Below are positions 11,516 to 23,366 of a stretch of 64,000 bases of DNA, in pieces. The position numbers were made by a program, and so were the translations under genes. The stretch spans positions 1 to 64,000 of the forward strand of contig JAAYHQ010000015.1 in assembly GCA_012727425.1 (NCBI GenBank), read 5' to 3'. Every line of letters starts with the position of its first letter. Within the stretch, counting starts at the first letter, position 1. The notes beneath the pieces are model-generated. The model was not told the DNA's origin, made no database searches, and saw only the letters and a program-made list of their open reading frames with translations. The stretch comes from Bacillota bacterium. GTDB taxonomy: Bacteria; Bacillota; UBA4882; UBA10575.

Positions 11516-11556
11516 AAAAAAGACTTTCCCCAATTAACAGTGGAAAGTCTTTTTTT
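11516..11556. terminator. Bidirectional terminator shared by trpS and the ger/menA/hepT operon
   Basis: Stem GACTTTCC (11522-11529) with GGAAAGTC (11542-11549), flanked by A-run and T-run. The stop codon of the convergent polyprenyl synthase gene (11534-11536) lies inside the loop. Confidence 0.9.
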
Positions 11557-12505
11557 GCCGGTCTTTTCTTTCTAAAAAACGGTCGGCGTAATCCCAAAGG
11601 AGGGCGGCTTGGGGCAAATCCAAGCCGGTAAGCCATGCTTGCGCCCGCTGCCGATAGACGGTGATCCGCCGCCAAACTTCGGCTTCCACCCGCCCGTCCG
11701 CGATCCATTTTCCGATGAGCCGTCGGTGTTTCGGCCAGACTTTACCCTCCGCCTGCACCTCCGCCAGCATCTCAGCAAAACCCGGTTGCTCACTGATTAA
11801 CAGTAACGGCAAGGTGAGAACGCCGTTTTTCAGGTCCTGATAAGCCGGTTTGCCGTCCCCTTGCGCCCCACCACTTAAATCCTGCCAATCATCAAACAAT
11901 TGGTAGGCCATCCCCAATTCACGACCAAAGGCCCCCAACTTGACCTGGACAGGCCGGGGCAAAGCGGCAAATTCGCCCCCCAGTTCACAGACGACCTGGA
12001 AAAAGCGGGCTGTTTTCTTCTCGATACGCTCCAAATAACGGTCGACCGGGATTAAACAGAACTTGTCCATCTCCTCGGCCAGTTCCCCGGCGACCATCTC
12101 GCGGAGTAAAAAATTGATCCGTTCCATCCCTTCCTTCCCGCACGCATTGTACAACAGGCGATAGGCGACGGCAAAAAGATAATCGCCAACCAAAACGGCG
12201 GTTTTTACCCCCCATTTCTTCCAAACCGCCGGCCGTCCCCGTCGCCGCTCCCCCCGGTCCAGCAGGTCATCGTGGACCAAAGTCGCCAAATGTAAGACTT
12301 CAACCCCTAGAACCAGAGAATTCAGCGCGGAAGAGCCGGTGACCGACGGTGAAACACCGGCGCAGAGCATCAGTAATTCTCCGCGTAACCCTTTCCCCGG
12401 TGTTGCCAAAAGCTCCAGCAGAATTTTCCGGAGCGGCGTCATCATCCCGTCCCCCTCATCCGGAAACAAGGCCGCATCGGGAGAGAAGACATTTACGCCC
12501 TTCAA
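11534..12505 (-). CDS. Polyprenyl diphosphate synthase (heptaprenyl synthase component II-like)
   Basis: A 323-residue trans-isoprenyl diphosphate synthase. It shows the chain-length region and first aspartate-rich motif VHDDLLDRGERRRGRPA, the GDYLFA segment, and the second aspartate-rich motif FDDWQD. These residues bind magnesium and the allylic diphosphate. The start is a TTG at 12505 directly after the TGA of the preceding prenyltransferase gene, with GGGGGG as ribosome site; starts further in are possible. Translational coupling to the menA-like gene suggests that it makes the side chain attached by that enzyme, as in menaquinone synthesis. Product chain length cannot be read from the sequence. 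The gene ends inside the terminator loop. Confidence 0.85.
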   Translation of the reverse strand: MKGVNVFSPDAALFPDEGDGMMTPLRKILLELLATPGKGLRGELLMLCAGVSPSVTGSSALNSLVLGVEVLHLATLVHDDLLDRGERRRGRPAVWKKWGVKTAVLVGDYLFAVAYRLLYNACGKEGMERINFLLREMVAGELAEEMDKFCLIPVDRYLERIEKKTARFFQVVCELGGEFAALPRPVQVKLGAFGRELGMAYQLFDDWQDLSGGAQGDGKPAYQDLKNGVLTLPLLLISEQPGFAEMLAEVQAEGKVWPKHRRLIGKWIADGRVEAEVWRRITVYRQRAQAWLTGLDLPQAALLWDYADRFLERKDRQKKTFHC

Positions 12506-13414
12506 TCAGTTCCCCCCTTTAACTAGCGTAAAAATGAGCATCAACCCACAGGCCGTATGGAGCAGAATCATCGCGGTACTGGCCAGCATAAACCGGGGCG
12601 CTTCCTTTAAGCCCCCGTGCCGTTGGGACCACAACCAAAAGCCCAAAGGCAGGGTCAGAATAGACCCGGCCCCGTACCGACGGGCACCCAGCCGCAGGAA
12701 GCTCAAGTACAATAGAGAAGAGGCAATAACCAGGAGAACAACAAGAAGGCGGATACTCTGCGCCCGCCCCAGACGCACGGCAAGAGTGCGTTTCCCCGCT
12801 TGCCGGTCACTTTCCAAATCGGGAAGTTCATTAATGAGGACCACCGCGGCAATCAAAACACCAACCGGAAGGGAGACCAACAGGGCGTTAGGCAGAAAAC
12901 GCCCGGCCAAAGCGGCCGTTGTCCCCAACACCAAAAAGGGGCCAAAAGCCAAACCAACACAGAGTTCACCGAGGCCGGTGGCCGCCAGCCGCACAGGAGG
13001 TGCCGAATAAAAATAACCGCAGCCCAATCCGGCCAGCGCGAAAAGGAGAACCCCAACTCCTCCCCCGGTCAACGCCAAGACAAAAGCACAGACGCTCCCC
13101 AACGTATAGCATAAAGCAACCGCCTTTTTCAGTTGCGCCGCCGTAATAATTTTATTCACCAAAACCCGGCTGCCCCCGTTAAACAGGGATGGTTGCCGGT
13201 TTAGGCGGTCCGCTTCCTCGTCATACAGATCATTAATAAGATTGGCCCCACTATGATAAAAGAAGACGCCCGCCAACACCAAAAGGAGACGCCAACCGTT
13301 GACCGGCCCCGCCTTTCGGGCGACAAACGATCCGAGCAAAACCGGAAGCATAGAAGCGGAAAGAAAATGGACCCTTAAGGCTTGTATCCACCCCTTAAAC
13401 CGTCGCCAGAACAA
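12506..13414 (-). CDS. menA: UbiA-family prenyltransferase, probable MenA
   Basis: A 302-residue, highly hydrophobic UbiA-superfamily protein with about eight to nine membrane helices. The two aspartate-rich loops are clear: NLINDLYDEEAD in the first half and NELPDLESDRQAGKRTLAVRLG in the second. Family members transfer a polyprenyl chain onto an aromatic ring; pairing with a polyprenyl synthase suggests 1,4-dihydroxy-2-naphthoate polyprenyltransferase of the menaquinone pathway. I chose the TTG at 13414 because GAGGAGG lies nine bases upstream, so the gene starts 14 bases after the gerC stop. An ATG at 13462 would extend it into gerC. It belongs to the unit that also contains the germination genes. 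Other UbiA activities cannot be excluded, since no other men genes are in the window. Confidence 0.8.
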   Translation of the reverse strand: MFWRRFKGWIQALRVHFLSASMLPVLLGSFVARKAGPVNGWRLLLVLAGVFFYHSGANLINDLYDEEADRLNRQPSLFNGGSRVLVNKIITAAQLKKAVALCYTLGSVCAFVLALTGGGVGVLLFALAGLGCGYFYSAPPVRLAATGLGELCVGLAFGPFLVLGTTAALAGRFLPNALLVSLPVGVLIAAVVLINELPDLESDRQAGKRTLAVRLGRAQSIRLLVVLLVIASSLLYLSFLRLGARRYGAGSILTLPLGFWLWSQRHGGLKEAPRFMLASTAMILLHTACGLMLIFTLVKGGN

Positions 13415-13428
13415 CCGTCGCCACCTCC

Positions 13429-14601
13429 TCACCCACCGAACCTCCGGATCGTCATCGCCCATTCCATCTCGACCTCGACTGCAATCGGCAAAGCAACAAA
13501 CTCCTGTTCCCAACGGTCCTTCACCTGTTGCCACCGTTTTGGTTTATAACTTTGCAAGTAACGGCCAACCCCTAAAACATCGGCCCCCAACTCCTGCGCG
13601 CGCCGGACGGTCTGTTCCAACTCCCTCCGCACCACCGCACTCACCCGCTGTTCCAAATCCTTCTGGAACGCGGCTAGCGGGCCATGGCCATCGGAAAACT
13701 CGATGGTCTCAAATTTGCCCCTTACTTGAATCAGAAAAATGGTTTGCCCGTTGTCTTCAAGCCACCGGTAGCGGGAACGAAAAGCATCCACACCGACCAC
13801 AATTGACTCTCCGGGATGAAGTGGACATTCCACTTCATATTTGGTGCCGGTCCCTTGGTTTAAAATAATATTCAACCCGCGTGTTTCAAAGTTGCTCAAC
13901 CAACCCCGGAACTTCCCGTTTTTGATCACGGCGGCCCCCCCGGTCAGCGTGGCCTCCTTGCCCGGTTGCAGCCGTGGCAGAACCGGATCGATCCCGTCGT
14001 CCGACTGTTCCACCAGAAAACGGCCGAAGTCCGAGATGTAATTGATAGCAACCCCGCTTTGCGGCGAAAGCAAATTTTCAATGTAGGCGGATGGGGTCTG
14101 GCTGATCGGTGGTTGTGTGTTCAGAATTTCGCGGGCTTCTCCGTCAATAATGGCGATCCGGGTCATCCGTTGCACCCGAAAATCCCGCTTAAAGTGGTCC
14201 AACAACCGATCCACCCCGATCGTCGCCGCCACCTCTGAATTGATCAAGAACATATGGGTATGGCCGAAAAAAAGCTCCCGGTCCAACTGCCGTTGCAACT
14301 GCCGAATCCCCACCGACACCATTTTGGCGGTGGTGCCATAGACCACAAAAGGCGCATCGCCACCACCCTGTTCCCCGTCTTCACCCATCTTGGCGGGGAT
14401 GGGGATCTGGACGCTAAGGAGAAACTCCATGGGGTCGGCCCCTTCCTCCGTCGGGACGTCAAAAGCGACCGCCGTCACAAAGGCTCGCGCGTTCAACTCC
14501 CGCCCTTCCCAGCAACCGGCGACCGTTAAAGTAAGAACAAGGATCAGACCCATCAAGCCCTTCTTTTTCCTTTTCAATACTACCTTCACCCTTTTAGACA
14601 C
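13429..14601 (-). CDS. gerC: Spore germination protein GerC, germinant receptor lipoprotein
   Basis: A 390-residue Ger(x)C-family protein, the lipoprotein subunit of nutrient germinant receptors in the inner spore membrane. It opens with a basic N-terminus, a hydrophobic segment and the lipobox LTVAGC, so Cys30 would be lipidated. Characteristic segments follow: REILNTQPPISQTPSAYIENLL, GGAAVIKNGKFRGWLS, RGLNIILNQ and the C-terminal QELGADVLGVGRYLQSY. The GTG start at 14601 overlaps the gerB end by eight bases, so the three ger genes are translated as a coupled set. Expression would be expected in the forespore, though no clear sigma-G promoter was identified. The germinant is unknown. Confidence 0.93.
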   Translation of the reverse strand: MSKRVKVVLKRKKKGLMGLILVLTLTVAGCWEGRELNARAFVTAVAFDVPTEEGADPMEFLLSVQIPIPAKMGEDGEQGGGDAPFVVYGTTAKMVSVGIRQLQRQLDRELFFGHTHMFLINSEVAATIGVDRLLDHFKRDFRVQRMTRIAIIDGEAREILNTQPPISQTPSAYIENLLSPQSGVAINYISDFGRFLVEQSDDGIDPVLPRLQPGKEATLTGGAAVIKNGKFRGWLSNFETRGLNIILNQGTGTKYEVECPLHPGESIVVGVDAFRSRYRWLEDNGQTIFLIQVRGKFETIEFSDGHGPLAAFQKDLEQRVSAVVRRELEQTVRRAQELGADVLGVGRYLQSYKPKRWQQVKDRWEQEFVALPIAVEVEMEWAMTIRRFGG

Positions 14602-15691
14602 GGTGTTTCCCCTTCACCAAACTCAACAGGTAAAGCAAAGGATAACCCAGGAAGGTGATGACCAGTGACAGCACCGCCACATAAAAACTGGCCTGACTCC
14701 AGACAAAATAGTTCTTCAGTTTGGTGCTCAGATAGTAGGCCACCGGGGCCAGCCCCCAAATAAAAGCCGCTTCTTTGCGGACCCGGAACAGCCGCCCCAA
14801 AGCCGCCCCCACCAGGTAACAGGCGATTAGGCCGGTGGTAAATAAGGCCGAGATCCAGGAGACAATCAGAACCAAATCCAACCTTTCAAGGATAACGGCC
14901 TGGGCATTAACGGATTTTGCCAGTTCCAACGCAACCCAGGACAGTTCGATCGTTTCCTTGTACCCAAAAACGCCGATGGTCGTCGCGGTAAAAAAGGAGT
15001 AAACCATGGTGATGACCAAAGACGCCTTCAAAGTGGCCTTCGTGACCTGCCAGGGCTGGCGGATGTAGGGAACCACCATGTTCACCACCGGAATACTGCC
15101 GAAGGAAAAGGTCATCCCGATCAACTGCTCGATTTTGTCCAGGTTGATCTGGTCCCTACTCAACAGCGGACGTAAATGCAACGGTTCAAAGTGTTGAAAA
15201 GCGGTCAGGGCCACAAACAGACCAATCAGTAAAGCAATCTCGATCAACAGTTCATTAACTTGCGCAATCTGATCGACCGGACGGGTCGCGCCGTAGGCCA
15301 GGACCAGAAGATAGGAGCCGCTCACGAACCAAACGGGCGCTCCAGGCAGGAGCGAGATATTGACCAGCTCCTGGAGAATCCGGATGTTCACCGGAATGAC
15401 CAGAAAAAGGTGGACAATAAAGACCAGGTTGAACAGGAGTCCAAACCCTTTGCCCAGCAGACGGGGGCTGTATTCGATGATCGTTTCCTCCGGAAATTTG
15501 GCGGCCAACCGGGCCGCGATCCACGCACTCCCCATGTAAAGCAACCCCAGCGCCAGAACCAGCAACCAGCCGGAAGCCCCCAAAACTTCCGCGGCCAAAC
15601 TGGGGAGGGTTAAAATCCCACCCCCTATGGCAAAACCTAGAATCAACAAGGTAATCTGGCGGGAAGACAAAAAACGTTCGTTTCCGCTCAC
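14594..15691 (-). CDS. gerB: Spore germination protein GerB, endospore germinant receptor permease subunit
   Basis: A 365-residue integral membrane protein of the GerAB/GerBB family, related to amino acid permeases. It begins with ERFLSSRQITLLILGFAIGGGILTLPS, and ten membrane segments can be counted from the hydrophobicity. In this family the subunit holds the germinant-binding pocket and, in recent models, helps form an ion channel. GTG start at 15691 overlaps the gerA stop by four bases (GTGA). It stands between gerA and gerC in the classical order. Which amino acid or sugar it senses cannot be deduced. Confidence 0.93.
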   Translation of the reverse strand: MSGNERFLSSRQITLLILGFAIGGGILTLPSLAAEVLGASGWLLVLALGLLYMGSAWIAARLAAKFPEETIIEYSPRLLGKGFGLLFNLVFIVHLFLVIPVNIRILQELVNISLLPGAPVWFVSGSYLLVLAYGATRPVDQIAQVNELLIEIALLIGLFVALTAFQHFEPLHLRPLLSRDQINLDKIEQLIGMTFSFGSIPVVNMVVPYIRQPWQVTKATLKASLVITMVYSFFTATTIGVFGYKETIELSWVALELAKSVNAQAVILERLDLVLIVSWISALFTTGLIACYLVGAALGRLFRVRKEAAFIWGLAPVAYYLSTKLKNYFVWSQASFYVAVLSLVITFLGYPLLYLLSLVKGKHRV

Positions 15692-17337
15692 TCTTCCTGG
15701 CCCCCTCCTTTGCGTCGGCGTGACGGCGGGTTAAACAGGGCTTCCCACCAGTGGTTGGCCTTGGAGCCCTCCCGCCGCACATCGAGGGGTTCGTTGAGCA
15801 GCGGCCGTTTAATCATTGTCCAGCGCGGCGCCACAAACAAGAAATCCTTCAGGTCGGAGAGGTTCAAGGGCACCACGGGGGAGAGGAAAGGAACCCCGAA
15901 CGAACGGATCCCGGCCATATTGATCAACAGCAGAATGGTGGCGAGCGAGAGACCGTACAGCCCGCCAATCTGCCCGATCAACATCAGGGGGAAACGCAGG
16001 ATCCGCATGGTAATGGCCACCCCAAAACTGGGCGCCGTAAATGAAGAGATCGCCGTTAAAGCCACAATAATTGTCATGATCGGTGAGATTAAACCGGCCC
16101 GGACCGCCGTATCACCCAAGATAAAGCCGCCCACGATCCCGATGGTCTGGCCGAAGGGAGCGGGCAACCGCACCGAAGCTTCACGGAGAATCTCGATGGC
16201 TATCTCCATGAACAAGGTCTCCAAAAAAACCGGAAAGGGCGTCCCTTCACGGGTTCCGGCTATTTTAATTGCCAGGTTAAACGGAATCAGCTCTGGATTA
16301 TGAACCGCGAGGGCAATGAAGATCGCCGGCAGATACAGCGAGAAGAAAAAAGCAAGAAAACGGATCATCCGGATCAGAATGCTCAACGGCCACCGGTGGT
16401 AGTAATCTTCTGCCGAGTAGTAAAGCTGCCAGAAGGTGATCGGCATAATCAGGGCAAAAGGCGTATTGTCGACAAGCACGGCAACTTTTCCCTCGAGCAA
16501 CGCCGCCACTACCCGGTCCACCCGCTCCGTCACCTGGACGGTGGGGAAAAGACTGTACGGCCGGTCCTCAATGTATTCCTGCAAATAGGCGCTTTCGACC
16601 ACACTGTCGATGTCGATCTTGCGCAGGCGCGCTTCGACCTCGGTCACCAGGTCCGGGTTGGCGATTGACTCCAGATAAACAAGGGCCACATCGGTCTGGG
16701 TGCGCACCCCCAGTTTGATCCCTTTTACTCTTAGATCCGGGTCGCGAATCCAGCGCCGTACCTGAGCCGTGTTGGAGCGCAAAACCTCATTAAACCCGAC
16801 CCGCGGACCCCGCACCGCCGATTCGGTCGTTGGCTCTTCGATCCCCCGGCGCTCCCAACCCCGGGTGTTACAGATCAGGGCCCGGTCCTCCCCTTCCAAC
16901 AGTAAAGCGGACTCCCCGGACAGAATCGCGGTGATCACCGGCGTCCATTGGGTCTGGATGCTCACTTCATTGATGGTCAAAACATGATCTTTGATGTTCT
17001 CGGCCAGGTTCCGCCGGTCCCGTGCCCAGGCGGCGTCCGTTCCCTCAAAAGTAGTCAGCGCCAGGAGAATATACTCGTTGATCGCATTGCCGTTGACCAG
17101 GCCGTCAACAAAGACCAGCACCGCCCGGACCGGTGTGGAGAGGGGAATGACAAATTCACGGAAGACCACATCGTTACTGGACCCGATCCGCGCTTCCAAA
17201 TAAGCGATATTCGCCGCTAAATCAGGAACCAGAACGGGCCCCTGTTCCTGCCCTTCCTGTTCCGGAGTGCGCTCTTTTCTTTCCTTCTCCTTTCGCAATT
17301 CGGCCACAGGCCGGGGACGGCGAAAACTTCTCTTCAT
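15688..17337 (-). CDS. gerA: Spore germination protein GerA, receptor A subunit
   Basis: A 549-residue GerA-family subunit. The N-terminal half is a soluble domain with NIAYLEARIGSSNDVVFREF, LLEGEDRALICNTRGWERRGIEEPTTE and VRGPRVGFNEVLRSNTAQVRRW, which are family hallmarks. The C-terminal half has membrane helices (LIRMIRFLAFFFSLYLPAIFIAL, GFILGDTAVRAGLISP) and a short basic tail. It acts with GerB and GerC in the inner spore membrane to trigger germination. The gene opens the ger trio with AGAGG six bases before ATG. It follows the activase gene after 94 bases that contain two small hairpins (near 17355-17371 and 17407-17419) but no obvious terminator. Confidence 0.95.
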   Translation of the reverse strand: MKRSFRRPRPVAELRKEKERKERTPEQEGQEQGPVLVPDLAANIAYLEARIGSSNDVVFREFVIPLSTPVRAVLVFVDGLVNGNAINEYILLALTTFEGTDAAWARDRRNLAENIKDHVLTINEVSIQTQWTPVITAILSGESALLLEGEDRALICNTRGWERRGIEEPTTESAVRGPRVGFNEVLRSNTAQVRRWIRDPDLRVKGIKLGVRTQTDVALVYLESIANPDLVTEVEARLRKIDIDSVVESAYLQEYIEDRPYSLFPTVQVTERVDRVVAALLEGKVAVLVDNTPFALIMPITFWQLYYSAEDYYHRWPLSILIRMIRFLAFFFSLYLPAIFIALAVHNPELIPFNLAIKIAGTREGTPFPVFLETLFMEIAIEILREASVRLPAPFGQTIGIVGGFILGDTAVRAGLISPIMTIIVALTAISSFTAPSFGVAITMRILRFPLMLIGQIGGLYGLSLATILLLINMAGIRSFGVPFLSPVVPLNLSDLKDFLFVAPRWTMIKRPLLNEPLDVRREGSKANHWWEALFNPPSRRRKGGGQEE

Positions 17338-17431: not shown

Positions 17432-18406
17432 TTACCCGGTGGCCTCGGTGTTTATCCGCTGCCACTTGCCACAGCGGTCGCCCCAGCCGGAGACCGGCCG
17501 CTGGTTAATCTGCACTTTAACCACCTCACACCGGTTGGGACAGTCCACGCACTCAAAACTGCTGACGCCAATCTCCTCCTCACTCAGTTGGAACCCGCGG
17601 AAACTGGTCTTACCGTACACCGCTTTCTCCTCCTGGGCCAGTAAAGCACTGCCCCAGGCCCCCATCGTATCGTAATATTCCGGAACAATTACCGGGTGTC
17701 CCAACTCCTGCTCAAAAGCCCGTTTGATCCCGGCGTTCGCCGCCACGCCCCCTTGAAACAAAATGGGCGGACGGATCTCTTTCCCTTTCCCTACATTGTT
17801 CAGGTAGTTCCGCACCAAAGCGGCACAAAGGCCCGCCACAATATCCTCCAGACTATGGCCCATCTGTTGCTTGTGGATCATATCCGATTCGGCAAAGACT
17901 GAACAACGCCCCGCGATCCGCACCGGGTGTTTCGAACGCAGAGCGATCTGCCCAAATTCCTCGATGGACAGGTTAAGCCGGTGCGCCTGCTGGTCCAGGA
18001 ACGAACCGGTCCCCGCGGCACACACCGTATTCATCCCAAAGTCGACCGCCACCCCATGGTCGATCAGGATGATCTTTGAATCTTGGCCGCCGATCTCCAG
18101 AACCGTCCGGACCTGGGGATAAGCGCGCAAAGCCGCCACCCCATGGGCGGTGATCTCGTTTTTAATCACATCGGCCCCGATGATCGCCCCAATCAGCTGC
18201 CGGCCGGAACCGGTGACCCCCACCCCCAGGACCTTGGCCTGACTAAACTCCGGGGCCACTTCGCGAAAGGCCTTCTGGACCGAACTAATAGGATTACCTT
18301 CGGTACGCAGGTAGATTTTTTTGATGATCCGCCCGTTTGGCGCCATCACCACCAGGTTCGTACTGACCGAACCCACATCCACACCCAAATAAACACCGTC
18401 TTCCAT
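17432..18406 (-). CDS. BadF/BadG/HgdC-type acyl-CoA dehydratase activase-like ATPase
   Basis: A 324-residue ASKHA-fold ATPase of the 2-hydroxyacyl-CoA dehydratase activator family. It has the phosphate-binding GVDVGSVSTNLVV, GVGVTGSGRQL, IGGQDSKII and GGVAANAGIKRAFE. The two cysteines that in HgdC bind a dimer-bridging [4Fe-4S] cluster are present (NTVCAAGTGSFLDQQA and GRCSVFAESDMIHKQQMG). Unusually for simple activators, it carries an extra C-terminal cysteine-rich tail (VDCPNRCEV, WGDRCGKWQ). Such proteins use ATP to deliver a low-potential electron to a partner. Its probable partners are the two HgdB-like proteins encoded immediately upstream; no standard dehydratase alpha/beta pair is present. 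AGGTGA lies a good distance before ATG 18406. The true substrate is unknown. Confidence 0.85.
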   Translation of the reverse strand: MEDGVYLGVDVGSVSTNLVVMAPNGRIIKKIYLRTEGNPISSVQKAFREVAPEFSQAKVLGVGVTGSGRQLIGAIIGADVIKNEITAHGVAALRAYPQVRTVLEIGGQDSKIILIDHGVAVDFGMNTVCAAGTGSFLDQQAHRLNLSIEEFGQIALRSKHPVRIAGRCSVFAESDMIHKQQMGHSLEDIVAGLCAALVRNYLNNVGKGKEIRPPILFQGGVAANAGIKRAFEQELGHPVIVPEYYDTMGAWGSALLAQEEKAVYGKTSFRGFQLSEEEIGVSSFECVDCPNRCEVVKVQINQRPVSGWGDRCGKWQRINTEATG

Positions 18407-18555
18407 CCAAGATCACCTGCCTAAGAAGATACTAGTTGATACTCTCCGCGCAAAAAGGACCACGGACCAATGGCTAACTGCTTATGGACGCCGCTTGGGT
18501 AAAAGACCGTTTCCACCGGGTGGCGACGAAATGGTCGGCTTCACGACCGAACCCC

Positions 18556-19671
18556 CTACCCCAGCGCCCCAGGAAACACCCGCCTTGCCCCTTTGTTCCC
18601 GGTGCGCCGGCGCCGCAACAGATCGACAAAGGCCTCCAACCGGGTTCGCACCCCCGCCTCCGCCGAATGCTCATCCAGGACCAGGGTCAAGATGGGCAAC
18701 TGGTAGGCAGCGCTGACCGCCGGTGTAATGCTTTGGGCGACAATCTCCGGCATACAGGTGAAGGGGAGGACTTGAATCACGCCATCCAAACGGTTCACCC
18801 CCGCATCGACCATCTCCGCGATGGTCTCCCGGCCGTGGCCGCCGACGAAAGCCGACAAAAAGGGTTCGGAAAGCAGAATCGTCCGCCGCCGGTGGTGGGG
18901 GTAGAAAAAACCAAACAAGTGTTCTTCCAGCCACTGGGAGATGGACATGTTCCGGACCACCTCAACCCCCATCTCCCCCAAAAGCATCTCCAGATGAAAA
19001 TTGACCCGGGGTTCCAACACCATATAGATTTCGCCGATCAGCTTCACCCGGAGCGGAGGTTCGCCCTCGGGTCGCCGGTTTGCCCGGAGCTCCGCCGCCA
19101 ACTGCCGATAGTGGAAACTGAGGTTTTTCATCTTTTCCTCCCGGCGCATCGCCGCCAAAAATTGTTCGTAACTGCGCTGCGCTTTGCCCTGGTCAATGCA
19201 GCGGGGCAGCATGAAGCGGAGAAGGGCGTTTCCCTGGTCGATCCAGCGGATCTTCTGCCAGGCCAGCCGAAAGACCGCAGCCGCCCGGGACAACGGGACC
19301 TTGCCCAGCAACAACCGTAAGGTACGGGAAAGCTCCTGTCGTTCGCCCCCGAGCGGTTCGAACAGAAACAGCTGGAATTTATAACCCAAATCGGCCAGGA
19401 TCTGCCGTTGAATTTGGGCGTAGTAACCGAAACGGCAAGGCCCCAACCCTCCGCCCATCAAGATCCCTTCCGCCCCTTGCTCCAAAGCTTCAATAAAGTT
19501 CCCCAGGTTAATCTTGAACGGGAGACAGGCGCCCTCCGGTGCATATTTGGCCCCCAGTTCAAAAGTGCGTTTGTTGGTTGGCGGGGCGAGCACCGCCTCA
19601 TGGCCAAGGCCGTTCAGTAAAGTTTCCACCGGAAGGGAAAGGAGTCCCATGTGGGGAAAGGTTAAACGCAA
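18556..19671 (-). CDS. HgdB/DUF2229-like protein A (activase partner, large form)
   Basis: A 371-residue protein of the group often labelled acyl-CoA dehydratase activase-related (DUF2229 / HgdB-like). It begins LRLTFPHMG, as the family usually does, from a TTG start with GGAG six bases upstream. Conserved cysteines occur in EGACLPFK, LGPCRFGYY, MLPRCID and PFTCMPEIV; in relatives such residues bind an iron-sulfur cluster. The C-terminal LVLDEHSAEAGVRTRLEAFVDLL closely repeats the end of the neighbouring protein B, so the two are paralogues. Its start overlaps the end of protein B by ten bases. It would act with the downstream activase, but the reaction is unknown and no CoA-pathway genes lie nearby. 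Confidence 0.75.
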   Translation of the reverse strand: MRLTFPHMGLLSLPVETLLNGLGHEAVLAPPTNKRTFELGAKYAPEGACLPFKINLGNFIEALEQGAEGILMGGGLGPCRFGYYAQIQRQILADLGYKFQLFLFEPLGGERQELSRTLRLLLGKVPLSRAAAVFRLAWQKIRWIDQGNALLRFMLPRCIDQGKAQRSYEQFLAAMRREEKMKNLSFHYRQLAAELRANRRPEGEPPLRVKLIGEIYMVLEPRVNFHLEMLLGEMGVEVVRNMSISQWLEEHLFGFFYPHHRRRTILLSEPFLSAFVGGHGRETIAEMVDAGVNRLDGVIQVLPFTCMPEIVAQSITPAVSAAYQLPILTLVLDEHSAEAGVRTRLEAFVDLLRRRRTGNKGARRVFPGALG

Positions 19672-20627
19672 CTTAATCTCCTCTTTCTCTGCAAAAGATC
19701 GATAAACGCCTCGATTCTCGTCACCAGCCCGGCTTCCCCCGAATGTTCGTCCAGAGCCAACTGGAGGAGGGGAAGGCCCGCCACTTTGGCTTCCTTCTTC
19801 ACCAACTCCCCGATCAAGGCCTCCGGGCCGCAGGCAAAGGCGCTAAGGTAGATGATCCCCTCCACCCTTTGCTTGCACAGCAGGCGAAAGGCGCCGACGA
19901 TCCGCTGGCTCAAAGTCCAAAACAAGGGTTTGGTCAGCAGGCGTAGCTCCGCCTCGATCTGCCGGGGAGTGAAATACTCCGGAGCCAATACTTGAAACCC
20001 ATAGCGCTGTAAAAGATCGATCGTCCCCAAATTGATTAAAGGGTCGTACAAACAATAGGGGTGGCCAATCAGGCCAATCCGGCGCCCTTTTTCCGCCCGG
20101 TGGGGGAAAGCCCCAGTGAAAAGGACGGTCTCCGCTTCCTCCGGAAATAACCCTTCCTGCAGAAGACGGTGGTAAGTGCGGAAGGCGGCTTCCGCCTTTT
20201 GCAGTCCTTTCTTGATGCGCCGGGCGGAAAAACCCTGGCGCAGCACGGCCGGAAGCGCCTGCGGCGACCCCAAAGCGCAGTTTTTCTCGCTCTTCCAGAT
20301 GAAAAGCGGCCGGTCTCCCACCGCCTGCCTGGTCATCTCCGGTAAACCCATAAATTTGGGGCAAATATAATCCTTTTTATTGACGCTGACCAGGCGGGGG
20401 ACCATGAGAAAATCGCATTGGGCGCGCAAAGACAAACAGTGGCCGATAAAAACCTTCACCGGCAGACAAGCCTCATCGACAGTGGCTTTGACCCCGGTGT
20501 TCAGGAGTTCCTTCCCGGTCGGCCCTGAGACCACCGGCGTCAAACCCAGTTCGGCCAGAAAAACGCGCCACAACGGACCATACCAGTAGTAGAGCAGCGC
20601 TCGTGGAATACCGATCTTGATCCTCAT
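19662..20627 (-). CDS. HgdB/DUF2229-like protein B (activase partner, small form)
   Basis: A 321-residue paralogue of protein A. The chosen ATG at 20627 gives MRIKIGIPRALLYYWYGPLW and has GGAGG close upstream; a GTG at 20654 is the alternative. Cysteines lie in VDEACLPVKVFIGHC, DYICPKFMGLPEM, HPYCLYDP and AFACGPEALIGE. Both paralogues share the ACLPxK and FxCxPE patterns and the C-terminal DEHSGEAGLVTRIEAFIDLL. In double-cubane and dehydratase relatives these positions bind [4Fe-4S]-type clusters that receive electrons from the activase. It is followed at once by protein A and then the activase, so a three-component redox module is likely. Function is not established. Confidence 0.75.
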   Translation of the reverse strand: MRIKIGIPRALLYYWYGPLWRVFLAELGLTPVVSGPTGKELLNTGVKATVDEACLPVKVFIGHCLSLRAQCDFLMVPRLVSVNKKDYICPKFMGLPEMTRQAVGDRPLFIWKSEKNCALGSPQALPAVLRQGFSARRIKKGLQKAEAAFRTYHRLLQEGLFPEEAETVLFTGAFPHRAEKGRRIGLIGHPYCLYDPLINLGTIDLLQRYGFQVLAPEYFTPRQIEAELRLLTKPLFWTLSQRIVGAFRLLCKQRVEGIIYLSAFACGPEALIGELVKKEAKVAGLPLLQLALDEHSGEAGLVTRIEAFIDLLQRKRRLSCV

Positions 20628-20666
20628 CCCTCCTCCCGTCCGGACCCCAACCACAAGCCATTACCC

Positions 20667-21143
20667 TTAAGCATCGCCACTTTGCCCCTTCTGTGCCAGC
20701 TCCTTTTTGACGACCGCCACCAACTGGCGCAACCGGGGTAAAGACCGGATGATCCCCAGGGTGGCCAGGGGTTTCCCCAGCCTCGGACAGCGTAGTTTTT
20801 TTGAGATAAAACCCCCGACCCGGGTCGTCAAGCCAATCGCCGTTAAGGTGTTAACCAAGAGGATCCGGTCGGCCAAACCCAGTTGGCCGGCCAGACTGAG
20901 CATAGCCCGGACACAAAGGGGCGTCTGGCCGTTCAGGCCCAAAATATAGACCTCGTTTCCCGCTTCGTCCTGCCCCACAAAATAAGGCGCACCAAAATCC
21001 GCGGCCTCGGCACGATCAAATTCGGGGACCGCCATAATTTGCTCCTTTGATACCGGTCCCGCCAGTGGCAGGGTCCCCAGGTGCAAGTGGGCGGCAACCA
21101 CCGACGAATGGGCCCGCCCGTAACAATGATAGATTACTTTCAC
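20667..21143 (-). CDS. DUF3189 family protein, copy 1
   Basis: A 158-residue protein starting MKVIYHCYGRAHSSVVAAHLHLGTLP, the signature opening of the DUF3189 family known from spore-forming Firmicutes. A second block, ILLVNTLTAIGLTTRVGGFISKKLRCPRLGKPL, is also characteristic. No enzyme motif with an accepted function can be named; the histidine and cysteine near the start (YHCYG) and the conserved HSS are candidates for metal or substrate contact. Its GTG start (21143) shares one base with the stop of copy 2, with AGAGGGG as ribosome site, so both are translated together. It lies between spoIIP and the HgdB-like genes, which suggests a sporulation-related role. Confidence 0.7.
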   Translation of the reverse strand: MKVIYHCYGRAHSSVVAAHLHLGTLPLAGPVSKEQIMAVPEFDRAEAADFGAPYFVGQDEAGNEVYILGLNGQTPLCVRAMLSLAGQLGLADRILLVNTLTAIGLTTRVGGFISKKLRCPRLGKPLATLGIIRSLPRLRQLVAVVKKELAQKGQSGDA

Positions 21144-21559
21144 TACAAACCCCTCTGCACTTCCCGGACCATCCGGCCGAGGGCATTATACCAACCGCAA
21201 AGCCCCGCACCCACGACGGTGCTTTGCCGACGGTGCCGGTTCAGTGCCAATTGACAGTCAATAAAATGATAGTTTGACGGGTCCTCCCCCAAGAGCGGAA
21301 GGAGGTTCGTGATTGTTTTTAGCAGCAAATCCGGTTTTTTCCCGGTCGCCAAGGTGTACACCGCTTCCCCCTTCCGTCCCCAACCAGCTAGACATAGCAC
21401 GCCAAATTCACCAGCGGTCACCCCTTTCCGCCACGGCAGTTCCTGCCGGAGAAAAAAACGGAGTTCTGCTGCGCTCTCGACCCGGGAGGGCAAATACCCA
21501 AGATGAATGGCCGCCGCCAAAGGCGCCACCCCACCTCTACCCGCCCAGTGGTAGATCAC
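21143..21559 (-). CDS. DUF3189-like protein, copy 2 (divergent paralogue)
   Basis: A 138-residue protein whose start, MIYHWAGRGGVAPLAAAIHLGYLPS, mirrors copy 1 but has lost the cysteine (YHWAG instead of YHCYG) and the paired serines. The second half (FIDCQLALNRHRRQSTVVGAGLCGWYNALGRMVREVQ) keeps the spacing of the family but with different residues. The GTG at 21559 has AGAGG six bases upstream. It starts ten bases after the spoIIP stop. The loss of the N-terminal Cys suggests a non-identical role, perhaps as a heterodimer partner; this is inference. Confidence 0.65.
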   Translation of the reverse strand: MIYHWAGRGGVAPLAAAIHLGYLPSRVESAAELRFFLRQELPWRKGVTAGEFGVLCLAGWGRKGEAVYTLATGKKPDLLLKTITNLLPLLGEDPSNYHFIDCQLALNRHRRQSTVVGAGLCGWYNALGRMVREVQRGL

Positions 21560-21568
21560 TTTTAACCT

Positions 21569-22693
21569 CTATTCCCCCTTCGGCGGTTCGCGGTCGGCGG
21601 GCGCATCCAGGCCGGTGTCACCCTCCGGGCCCCCACCGGTACCCCCAAGACTCGTGCGGATCTTGCCAAATCCGCCGTTTATCACAAAATAGATCACCAC
21701 CCCGACCACCAAAAGACCAATCACCCACCAAAGGGACCGCAAAGCCCCGGCTCCCACCGCTCGCTTGCTGGCCCCCGCATTGGTCAACACCTCTTTGGTC
21801 GCTGCTGCGAAGATGGCGGCACCCCTTTCCGCTTCTTCCCGGCTGTTGGCGTGGGTCCCCATCTCCACCAGGAGCAGCCGCGGGGCCAAGTCCTGGTTAT
21901 ACTTGCCGTCTGCGTAGAAAATCCCTTTGATGAAACCGGGGTATTTTTTATCGACTACCGCCTTGATTTGGTAGGCAAAGGCTTCATTGGCTTTCATGTT
22001 CGGGTTTTGCCGGCCAACCACCAGTTGGGCTTTGGTGACCGCCGTATTATTGACCTCGCCCGCATACTCATCGGCCGGAACCGCATCACGGTGGATATCC
22101 AGCAGGGCAATGGGGTTTTTCTTCAAGAGCTCGGCGGCGGTCCGCCGTGACCGGTCATAAGCCAGCGCATCATGGGGATCGTGGGGGGTTTTATCGTGGA
22201 TCACATTGACCCCGCGCTCCCGTAAAGCCTGGGCCAAAGCTTCGCCCACCTTAAAGATCCCGCCGTTCCCCCGAATGCTTGACCGCCCGTCCGTCGGCAC
22301 ATAGGATTCGGCCGAATGGGTATGGTAGATCGCCACCGGCCGGTTATCACTCTGGGCGTATTTTTCTTTTCCGGGGAAAAGACGGAGCACCGCACTGGTC
22401 AGCCGGGTAAGGAAAGACGGGGCAATCGCCGCTTCCAAGTTCACTTGCCGTACAAAACGAAGATGGGCGGTGTTTTCCTTCACTTCTTCCACCCGGTACA
22501 ACTTATTATCGGCCGTTAAGTACTGGTCCCCTTTTTTCACTTCATGGGCCGTCCGGGCAATGCGGCGTCCTTCCGCATCAACCAGCGTAAAATAACCATC
22601 CTCCCGTTCCGTATGTCCGCAAACCGGACCGGCCAGCGTTAGGAAGACAAGCAAAAGCAGCCACCGGTGCCCGCCTCCTCTTTTATTCATCAT
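21569..22693 (-). CDS. spoIIP: Stage II sporulation protein P, engulfment amidase
   Basis: A 374-residue membrane-anchored cell-wall amidase/endopeptidase of the DMP engulfment complex (SpoIID-SpoIIM-SpoIIP). The start at 22693 (MMNKRGGGHRWLLLLVFL) has AAGGAGG upstream and gives a signal anchor. The catalytic domain shows AIYHTHSAESY, VIHDKTPHD, LLDIHRDAVPADEY, AQLVVGRQNPN and LLVEMGTHANSREEAERG, which carry the zinc-binding histidines and catalytic glutamate of the family. A second membrane segment lies near the C-terminus (LWWVIGLLVVGVVIYFVI), followed by a glycine-rich acidic tail. Its start overlaps the stop of the DUF1614 gene. It is firm evidence that the organism forms endospores. Confidence 0.93.
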   Translation of the reverse strand: MMNKRGGGHRWLLLLVFLTLAGPVCGHTEREDGYFTLVDAEGRRIARTAHEVKKGDQYLTADNKLYRVEEVKENTAHLRFVRQVNLEAAIAPSFLTRLTSAVLRLFPGKEKYAQSDNRPVAIYHTHSAESYVPTDGRSSIRGNGGIFKVGEALAQALRERGVNVIHDKTPHDPHDALAYDRSRRTAAELLKKNPIALLDIHRDAVPADEYAGEVNNTAVTKAQLVVGRQNPNMKANEAFAYQIKAVVDKKYPGFIKGIFYADGKYNQDLAPRLLLVEMGTHANSREEAERGAAIFAAATKEVLTNAGASKRAVGAGALRSLWWVIGLLVVGVVIYFVINGGFGKIRTSLGGTGGGPEGDTGLDAPADREPPKGE

Positions 22694-23366
22694 CCGCACC
22701 TCCTTCCGGTTTTTCCGGTGCGACCAGACCCTCTGTGCGCGCGGAAGAACGGTCCGGCCCGCCCTGGAGCCATTCCCGGGACTCCCCAATGATTTCGGCC
22801 AAAACCACACCGATCAGCCCGGCAAGAACCACCGTATCCAAAACACCGGCCCCGCCGATCCGGCTTGGCCCGTAGCGCATACCCCGTAAGGCCCCTTCGA
22901 CCGCGTGAGCAATGTCGGCCAGAATCACCCCGGTCGTGGCTCCCACAAAAGCCAGCCGCCGCGAACGTCCGATCAGATAGGCGGTGACCCCGGCAATTAT
23001 TCCCCACAGATACTGGGGATCAACGAATCCGGCGTTGATATCAAATTTATAGATCTTGGCCACACCGTAGATCAGTGCCCCCACCAGCAATGCCCCCAGG
23101 ATGCCCCGGGTGGTCTCCCTGGCGGTTCCGGCCCGGTATAGAACATAAATACTCAGGGCCAGCGGAATAAGGGCGCCGCCCAAATTGATGCTGACCGGCG
23201 GCTGACCCCGGTAGAGGGGGATCTCGATAAAACTGCCCACCACCATGGCTGCCAGAATCAGCAAAGCCTGTTTATCATTGAGATAGAGCCGGTCCAAGAC
23301 TTGCTGGGCCAGTCCCAACAGGATCAGAATTCCTGCGCCAATCAGCAGCAGCAAGCCGATACTCAT
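22683..23366 (-). CDS. DUF1614 family membrane protein
   Basis: A 227-residue protein with about seven hydrophobic segments (GLLLLIGAGILILLGLAQQVL, ALLILAAMVVGSFIEIPLY, GALIPLALSIYVLYRA and others) and an acidic C-terminal tail. The conserved PVSINLGGALIPL, VDPQYLWGIIAG, SRRLAFVGATTGVILADIAHAV and IGGAGVLDTVVLAGLIG identify DUF1614, a family of unknown function common in spore formers. The gene has GGAGGAAATAAGG before its ATG and leads the operon that continues into spoIIP by a short overlap, hinting at a role in sporulation. Molecular function unknown. Confidence 0.8.
   Translation of the reverse strand: MSIGLLLLIGAGILILLGLAQQVLDRLYLNDKQALLILAAMVVGSFIEIPLYRGQPPVSINLGGALIPLALSIYVLYRAGTARETTRGILGALLVGALIYGVAKIYKFDINAGFVDPQYLWGIIAGVTAYLIGRSRRLAFVGATTGVILADIAHAVEGALRGMRYGPSRIGGAGVLDTVVLAGLIGVVLAEIIGESREWLQGGPDRSSARTEGLVAPEKPEGGADDE

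Follow-up and report, generated by a model that had tools for sequence, protein, structure and literature searches.

A sporulation-associated DUF2229-HgdB-activase gene triad of anaerobic spore formers as a putative ATP-driven low-potential reductase

Enzymes of the benzoyl-CoA reductase/2-hydroxyacyl-CoA dehydratase (BCR/HAD) radical-enzyme superfamily combine ATP-dependent electron transfer with radical chemistry at iron-sulfur (Fe-S) clusters (PMC11971306). The described systems closest to the genes studied here are DCCP:DCCP-R of the double-cubane type, the (R)-2-hydroxyacyl-CoA dehydratases, and the class I benzoyl-CoA reductases. Our window is a stretch of 64,000 nucleotides from a Bacillota bacterium (GTDB lineage UBA4882; UBA10575; assembly GCA_012727425.1, contig JAAYHQ010000015.1, positions 1 to 64,000), in which five open reading frames on the minus strand lie between spoIIP and gerA at 17432-21559 (coordinates as in a preliminary description of this DNA). 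Three of them encode a DUF2229/HgdA-like subunit, an HgdB-like subunit, and a BadF/HgdC-type activase. We propose, with a probability of roughly 0.6, that this triad represents a branch of the BCR/HAD superfamily that is dedicated to sporulation and works as an ATP-driven low-potential Fe-S reductase, a reading carried by the HgdB-like fold, the gene order, a spore-limited clade, and invariant cysteines.

The two subunits are paralogues of each other, as had been claimed (hhalign profile-profile E 5e-38). An AlphaFold2 model of the HgdB-like subunit (predicted local distance difference test score [pLDDT] 91) finds its best Foldseek match in DCCP (E 1.7e-9) and also matches 2-hydroxyisocaproyl-CoA dehydratase (E 1.5e-8) and benzoyl-CoA reductase, with nothing beyond these three below E 0.01. 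By homology to the modelled protein, the DUF2229 subunit would share the same fold. Its score against PF06050 (HGD-D) falls on either side of the cut-off of 28.4 bits (27.9 bits as a protein, 29.1 bits in a six-frame search), and the HgdB-like subunit reaches 15.5 bits. Each subunit has three invariant cysteines that are putative cluster ligands: C63, C98, and C275 in the DUF2229 subunit (alignment of 55 homologues) and C49, C79, and C306 in the HgdB-like subunit, where they are invariant in the paralogues outside the sporulation clade as well.

The activase scores above the TIGR00241 cut-off of 125 bits and is nearest in sequence to MbdQ (E 4e-38), with the HadI structure matched at E 7e-36. 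Both bridging cysteines, C129 and C168, are invariant in 25 homologues together with C286, C289, C293, and C312, which places four of the six invariant cysteines in a C-terminal tail; solved activases are shorter than this protein (243 to 276 versus 324 residues). A six-frame search of the window genome finds PF06050 at this locus alone, and apart from the activase just one further protein matches PF01869 strongly and resembles an N-acetylglucosamine kinase. We therefore rejected both a second activase in this genome and an orphan activase whose canonical dehydratase is encoded elsewhere, and the likely partners of the activase are its two neighbours.

Gene neighbourhoods were compared in 80 homologue loci from contigs of GTDB genomes and 60 stretches from further genomes, the former picked for their likeness to the window protein and the latter so as to enrich paralogues, so that the fractions given here are not population frequencies. 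The conserved unit is DUF2229-HgdB-activase, with the DUF2229 gene adjacent in 74 of the 75 loci with room for it and the activase gene in 68 of 76. In most loci, the triad follows dacF-spoIIAA-spoIIAB-sigF-spoVAC-spoVAD-spoVAE-(spoVAEa)-spoVAF, often with lysA next (we use "spoVAF" for a GerA-family protein named by its position; the families of representative neighbours were checked). The DUF3189 pair sits instead in ispH/rpsA-DUF1614-spoIIP-DUF3189-DUF3189-der-gpsA-spoIVA in 17 to 18 of 20 other loci (we take der, gpsA, and spoIVA to be such from their sequences), and it travels with DUF1614-spoIIP-spoIVA in genomes whose triad travels with spoVA. Among the loci sampled, only those from the window's class and its near relatives have the two blocks joined. 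The five genes thus mark the place where two sporulation blocks, each conserved in its own right, have been joined in this lineage, and we rejected the five-gene module that the preliminary description had seen as a dedicated electron transfer system acting in sporulation or germination. What stands of that claim is the dedication of the triad to sporulation, as judged by clade and linkage, while low-potential electron transfer is suggested by homology; the DUF3189 pair probably has a separate function.

In sister genomes (L205 and L206), spoVAEa lies between the DUF3189 and DUF2229 genes (PF14097 E 6e-61). No spoVAEa match turned up at any place in the window genome, whose spoVA operon is broken up, with spoVAC-spoVAD far from spoVAE. 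The junction at the spoIIP locus in the window's class and the usual position at the spoVA locus thus place the triad beside sporulation genes in two different arrangements, with spoVAEa as a neighbour in both. In several spoVA loci (L038, L046, L050, L053, L073, L075, and others), a gene for the flavin-binding protein dodecin (PF07311) lies immediately upstream of spoVAC, after sigF where present, and 38 of the 80 loci hold a dodecin family member; flavin stored in the spore region might bear on electron supply. Triad-bearing spoVA loci of the Bacillota type were also seen on contigs labelled as Desulfovibrio or Deltaproteobacteria metagenome-assembled genomes (L059 and L088), which were probably wrongly binned.

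All 84 copies with sporulation neighbours fall into one clade of 111 rows (Shimodaira-Hasegawa-like approximate likelihood ratio test [SH-aLRT] 98) in a tree of 141 HgdB-like proteins that was rooted by midpoint only, and the 30 rows outside this clade are paralogous triads in mixed contexts, none of them with sporulation neighbours. Where at least 4 kb of upstream sequence was available, a sporulation gene lay within 8 kb in 74 of 91 loci inside the clade versus 0 of 28 outside. Residues specific to the clade occur near the cysteines and carry little weight, since conserved columns cluster there anyway. The neighbourhoods of the paralogues, searched as a clue to the substrate, revealed no recurrent pathway across the outside-clade loci. 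Some of these paralogous triads (L156, L158, and L161), outside sporulation contexts, carry a second HgdB-like gene behind the activase gene (DUF2229-HgdB-activase-HgdB).

A phylogenetic profile of 379 genomes with at least 90% completeness found the family in 262 of 327 SpoVA-positive versus 10 of 52 SpoVA-negative genomes (odds ratio 17). These ten exceptions are explained by paralogues or incomplete assembly: nine carry outside-clade copies only, lack SpoIIP as well, and when re-examined contained no sporulation-clade triad, and the tenth (G246), whose assembly is fragmented, has both SpoIIP and dpaA. Within one family (f66), the sole sporulator (G274) has both a paralogue and the triad, the latter at its sigF locus, and three relatives lacking SpoVA and SpoIIP have the paralogue only. 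The expected co-occurrence with sporulation genes and lack in non-sporulators therefore holds for the sporulation clade but not for the family as a whole, which we rejected as a spore marker because outside-clade paralogues occur in non-sporulators. The aerobic spore former Bacillus subtilis, included in the control set, gave no DUF2229 match, which fits an oxygen-sensitive function.

Several observations weigh against a dedicated role in sporulation. The family is missing from 65 SpoVA-positive genomes and so is not essential to sporulation everywhere; of the 91 inside-clade loci with sufficient sequence upstream, 17 have no sporulation gene nearby; and the SpoVA-negative set, compared by a Fisher test that ignores phylogeny, probably includes distant non-Clostridia. 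A redox module of vegetative or housekeeping function that just happens to lie beside sporulation genes would suit the 65 genomes that manage without it, and likewise the paralogous triads in varied non-spore contexts and in non-sporulators. We consider such a module quite unlikely, given that the sporulation clade neighbours sporulation genes in two places with spoVAEa in common and was not found in the re-examined genomes lacking SpoVA and SpoIIP. By genomics, the link of the triad to sporulation is strong.

The SpoVA channel carries dipicolinic acid, and in many loci the triad lies between spoVA and lysA, a position that would suit an alternative route to this compound; of the 46 SpoVA-positive genomes without dpaA, 43 have the family. 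However, this trend is a weak one (p 0.015) that lineage confounds, most triad genomes including that of the window also carry dpaA, and the last step of dipicolinic acid synthesis is an oxidation and not a low-potential reduction. Such a route therefore seems very improbable, and replacement of dipicolinate synthase as a general role was rejected because dpaA co-occurs.

If the triad is a sporulation-dedicated reductase, a dimer of the activase would bind ATP, and C129 and C168 would hold an Fe-S cluster at its subunit interface, possibly with a second cluster at the four-cysteine tail. ATP hydrolysis would then drive single electrons of very low potential from the activase into a DUF2229/HgdB-like heterodimer, where the three cysteines of each subunit would hold the active Fe-S cluster or clusters. 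This heterodimer would act on a substrate, most probably a small molecule, by reducing it or generating a radical on it, and anaerobic spores would need this substrate to mature or revive. The compartment is most likely the forespore, because the products of spoVA and ger genes act there.

In agreement with the preliminary description, no dehydratase substrate pathway is apparent nearby, and no acyl-CoA fermentation genes were recognised in the neighbourhood maps. The lack of a linked pathway would also be consistent with a reactivase that re-reduces a metal cofactor or Fe-S protein at the expense of ATP, so as to hold an oxygen-sensitive enzyme in readiness within the spore or to restore it at germination, much like RACo for corrinoid proteins or the ATP-driven activation complex of methyl-coenzyme M reductase (MCR). 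Activases are one-electron donors, the distribution fits anaerobes, and there is a precedent elsewhere for activating an enzyme by ATP-driven reduction (PMC12176620). Yet the HgdB-like pair resembles a complete catalyst equipped with cysteine sets of its own, which is more than a reactivase needs, and no recurrent gene for a target metalloenzyme was recognised beside the triad, so that we regard this alternative as less likely, though still a serious rival.

Returning to a reductase dedicated to sporulation, we tentatively suggest that many anaerobic spore formers may carry an ATP-driven reductive or radical step of extremely low potential that is dedicated to spore maturation or revival, has its own substrate, and has gone unseen because the aerobic Bacillus model lacks it. 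Sporulation is known mainly from B. subtilis, an aerobe, and if our proposal is true, anaerobic spores use chemistry absent from this model. The triad is a defined three-gene target, and through it the BCR/HAD superfamily may acquire a role in development.

The five genes of the window are transcribed in the order DUF3189 B, DUF3189 A, DUF2229, HgdB-like, and activase (Table 1). The two DUF3189 genes share 1 base, 12 bases separate DUF3189 A from the DUF2229 gene, and the latter overlaps the HgdB-like gene by 10 bases. The gap of 149 bases before the activase gene contains no promoter conserved within the genus. An ATG nine codons into the listed GTG reading frame of the DUF2229 subunit is the better fit to the family start, and the listed overlap of DUF1614 and spoIIP suggests that the true start of spoIIP lies later than listed. 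Coordinates, overlaps, the gap, the activase type with both of its cluster cysteines, and the assignment of the DUF3189 paralogues and of the flanking DUF1614, spoIIP, and gerA-gerB-gerC genes all agree with the preliminary description. Past gerC, at 11534-13534 of the window, the same strand encodes a UbiA prenyltransferase and a polyprenyl synthetase, and the window genome carries two SpoIIP genes (contigs C57 and C47).

Table 1. The five genes of the locus and their neighbours, with profile matches
Feature	Position	Strand	Details	Profile match
DUF3189 protein B	21143..21559	-	diverged paralogue	PF11385 42.4 bits
DUF3189 protein A	20667..21143	-		PF11385 143.5 bits
DUF2229/HgdA-like subunit	19662..20654	-	330 aa, GTG start as listed	PF09989 E 6e-43
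HgdB-like subunit	18556..19671	-	371 aa, TTG start	PF09989 42 bits
Activase, BadF/HgdC type ATPase	17432..18406	-	324 aa	PF01869 E 1e-50; TIGR00241 197 bits
spoIIP	21569..22810	-	upstream neighbour	TIGR02867 187 bits
DUF1614 membrane protein	22683..23366	-	upstream neighbour	PF07758 54 bits
gerA	15688..17337	-	downstream neighbour	NF052514 290.6 bits, below cut-off 850
gerB	14594..15691	-	downstream neighbour	TIGR00912 177 bits
gerC	13429..14601	-	downstream neighbour	TIGR02887 236 bits

Both DUF3189 proteins exceed the PF11385 cut-off of 23.2 bits, and their family is likewise spore-limited, being present in 218 of 327 SpoVA-positive genomes versus 1 of 52 SpoVA-negative ones, and this single genome (G225) has SpoIIP. 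It is a second, separate target. Protein A starts with CxGxxHSSxxAA, a motif reminiscent of the phosphate loop in low-molecular-weight tyrosine phosphatases, and enzymes of this type account for several of the weak, non-significant fold matches; the confident DUF3189 model (pLDDT 95.5) has no significant match among PDB or viral structures.

The proteins of the triad belong to known families, and in the open literature searched (subscription journals and supplements lay outside the search) we found neither a paper linking these genes with sporulation nor their spore-limited clade or its position in the sigF-spoVA run. With DCCP:DCCP-R (PDB 6eno, 7yyl, and 7yzm), the triad shares the fold, an activase partner of the acetate and sugar kinase/Hsp70/actin (ASKHA) type, and one C-terminal cysteine that aligns in a profile search. 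However, it has two different subunits versus one kind in DCCP, scores 16.8 bits and thus far under the cut-off of 350 of the double_cubane profile NF040772, and differs in the four-cysteine tail of its activase and its linkage to sporulation genes. Similar to the (R)-2-hydroxyacyl-CoA dehydratases (HgdC/HgdAB and HadI/HadBC; PDB 3o3m, 1hux, and 4eht), it combines an activase resembling HadI with two paralogous cysteine-bearing subunits of the same fold, but its DUF2229 subunits are shorter, bear the signature DEHxxEAGxxTRxEAF, and have no genes for CoA-transferase, acyl-CoA dehydrogenase, or amino-acid fermentation recognised in their neighbourhood maps. The class I benzoyl-CoA reductases (Bcr, Bzd, and Mbd) share the superfamily fold (PDB 8s02 and 9gai) and, in MbdQ, provide the closest relative of the activase, yet they have two different ATPase subunits versus one activase in the triad, near which no aromatic degradation genes were recognised. 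To our knowledge, the spoVA operon of B. subtilis is without triad genes; the spoIIA-sigF-spoVA-spoVAF run continues into the triad in most of the sampled anaerobic spore formers.

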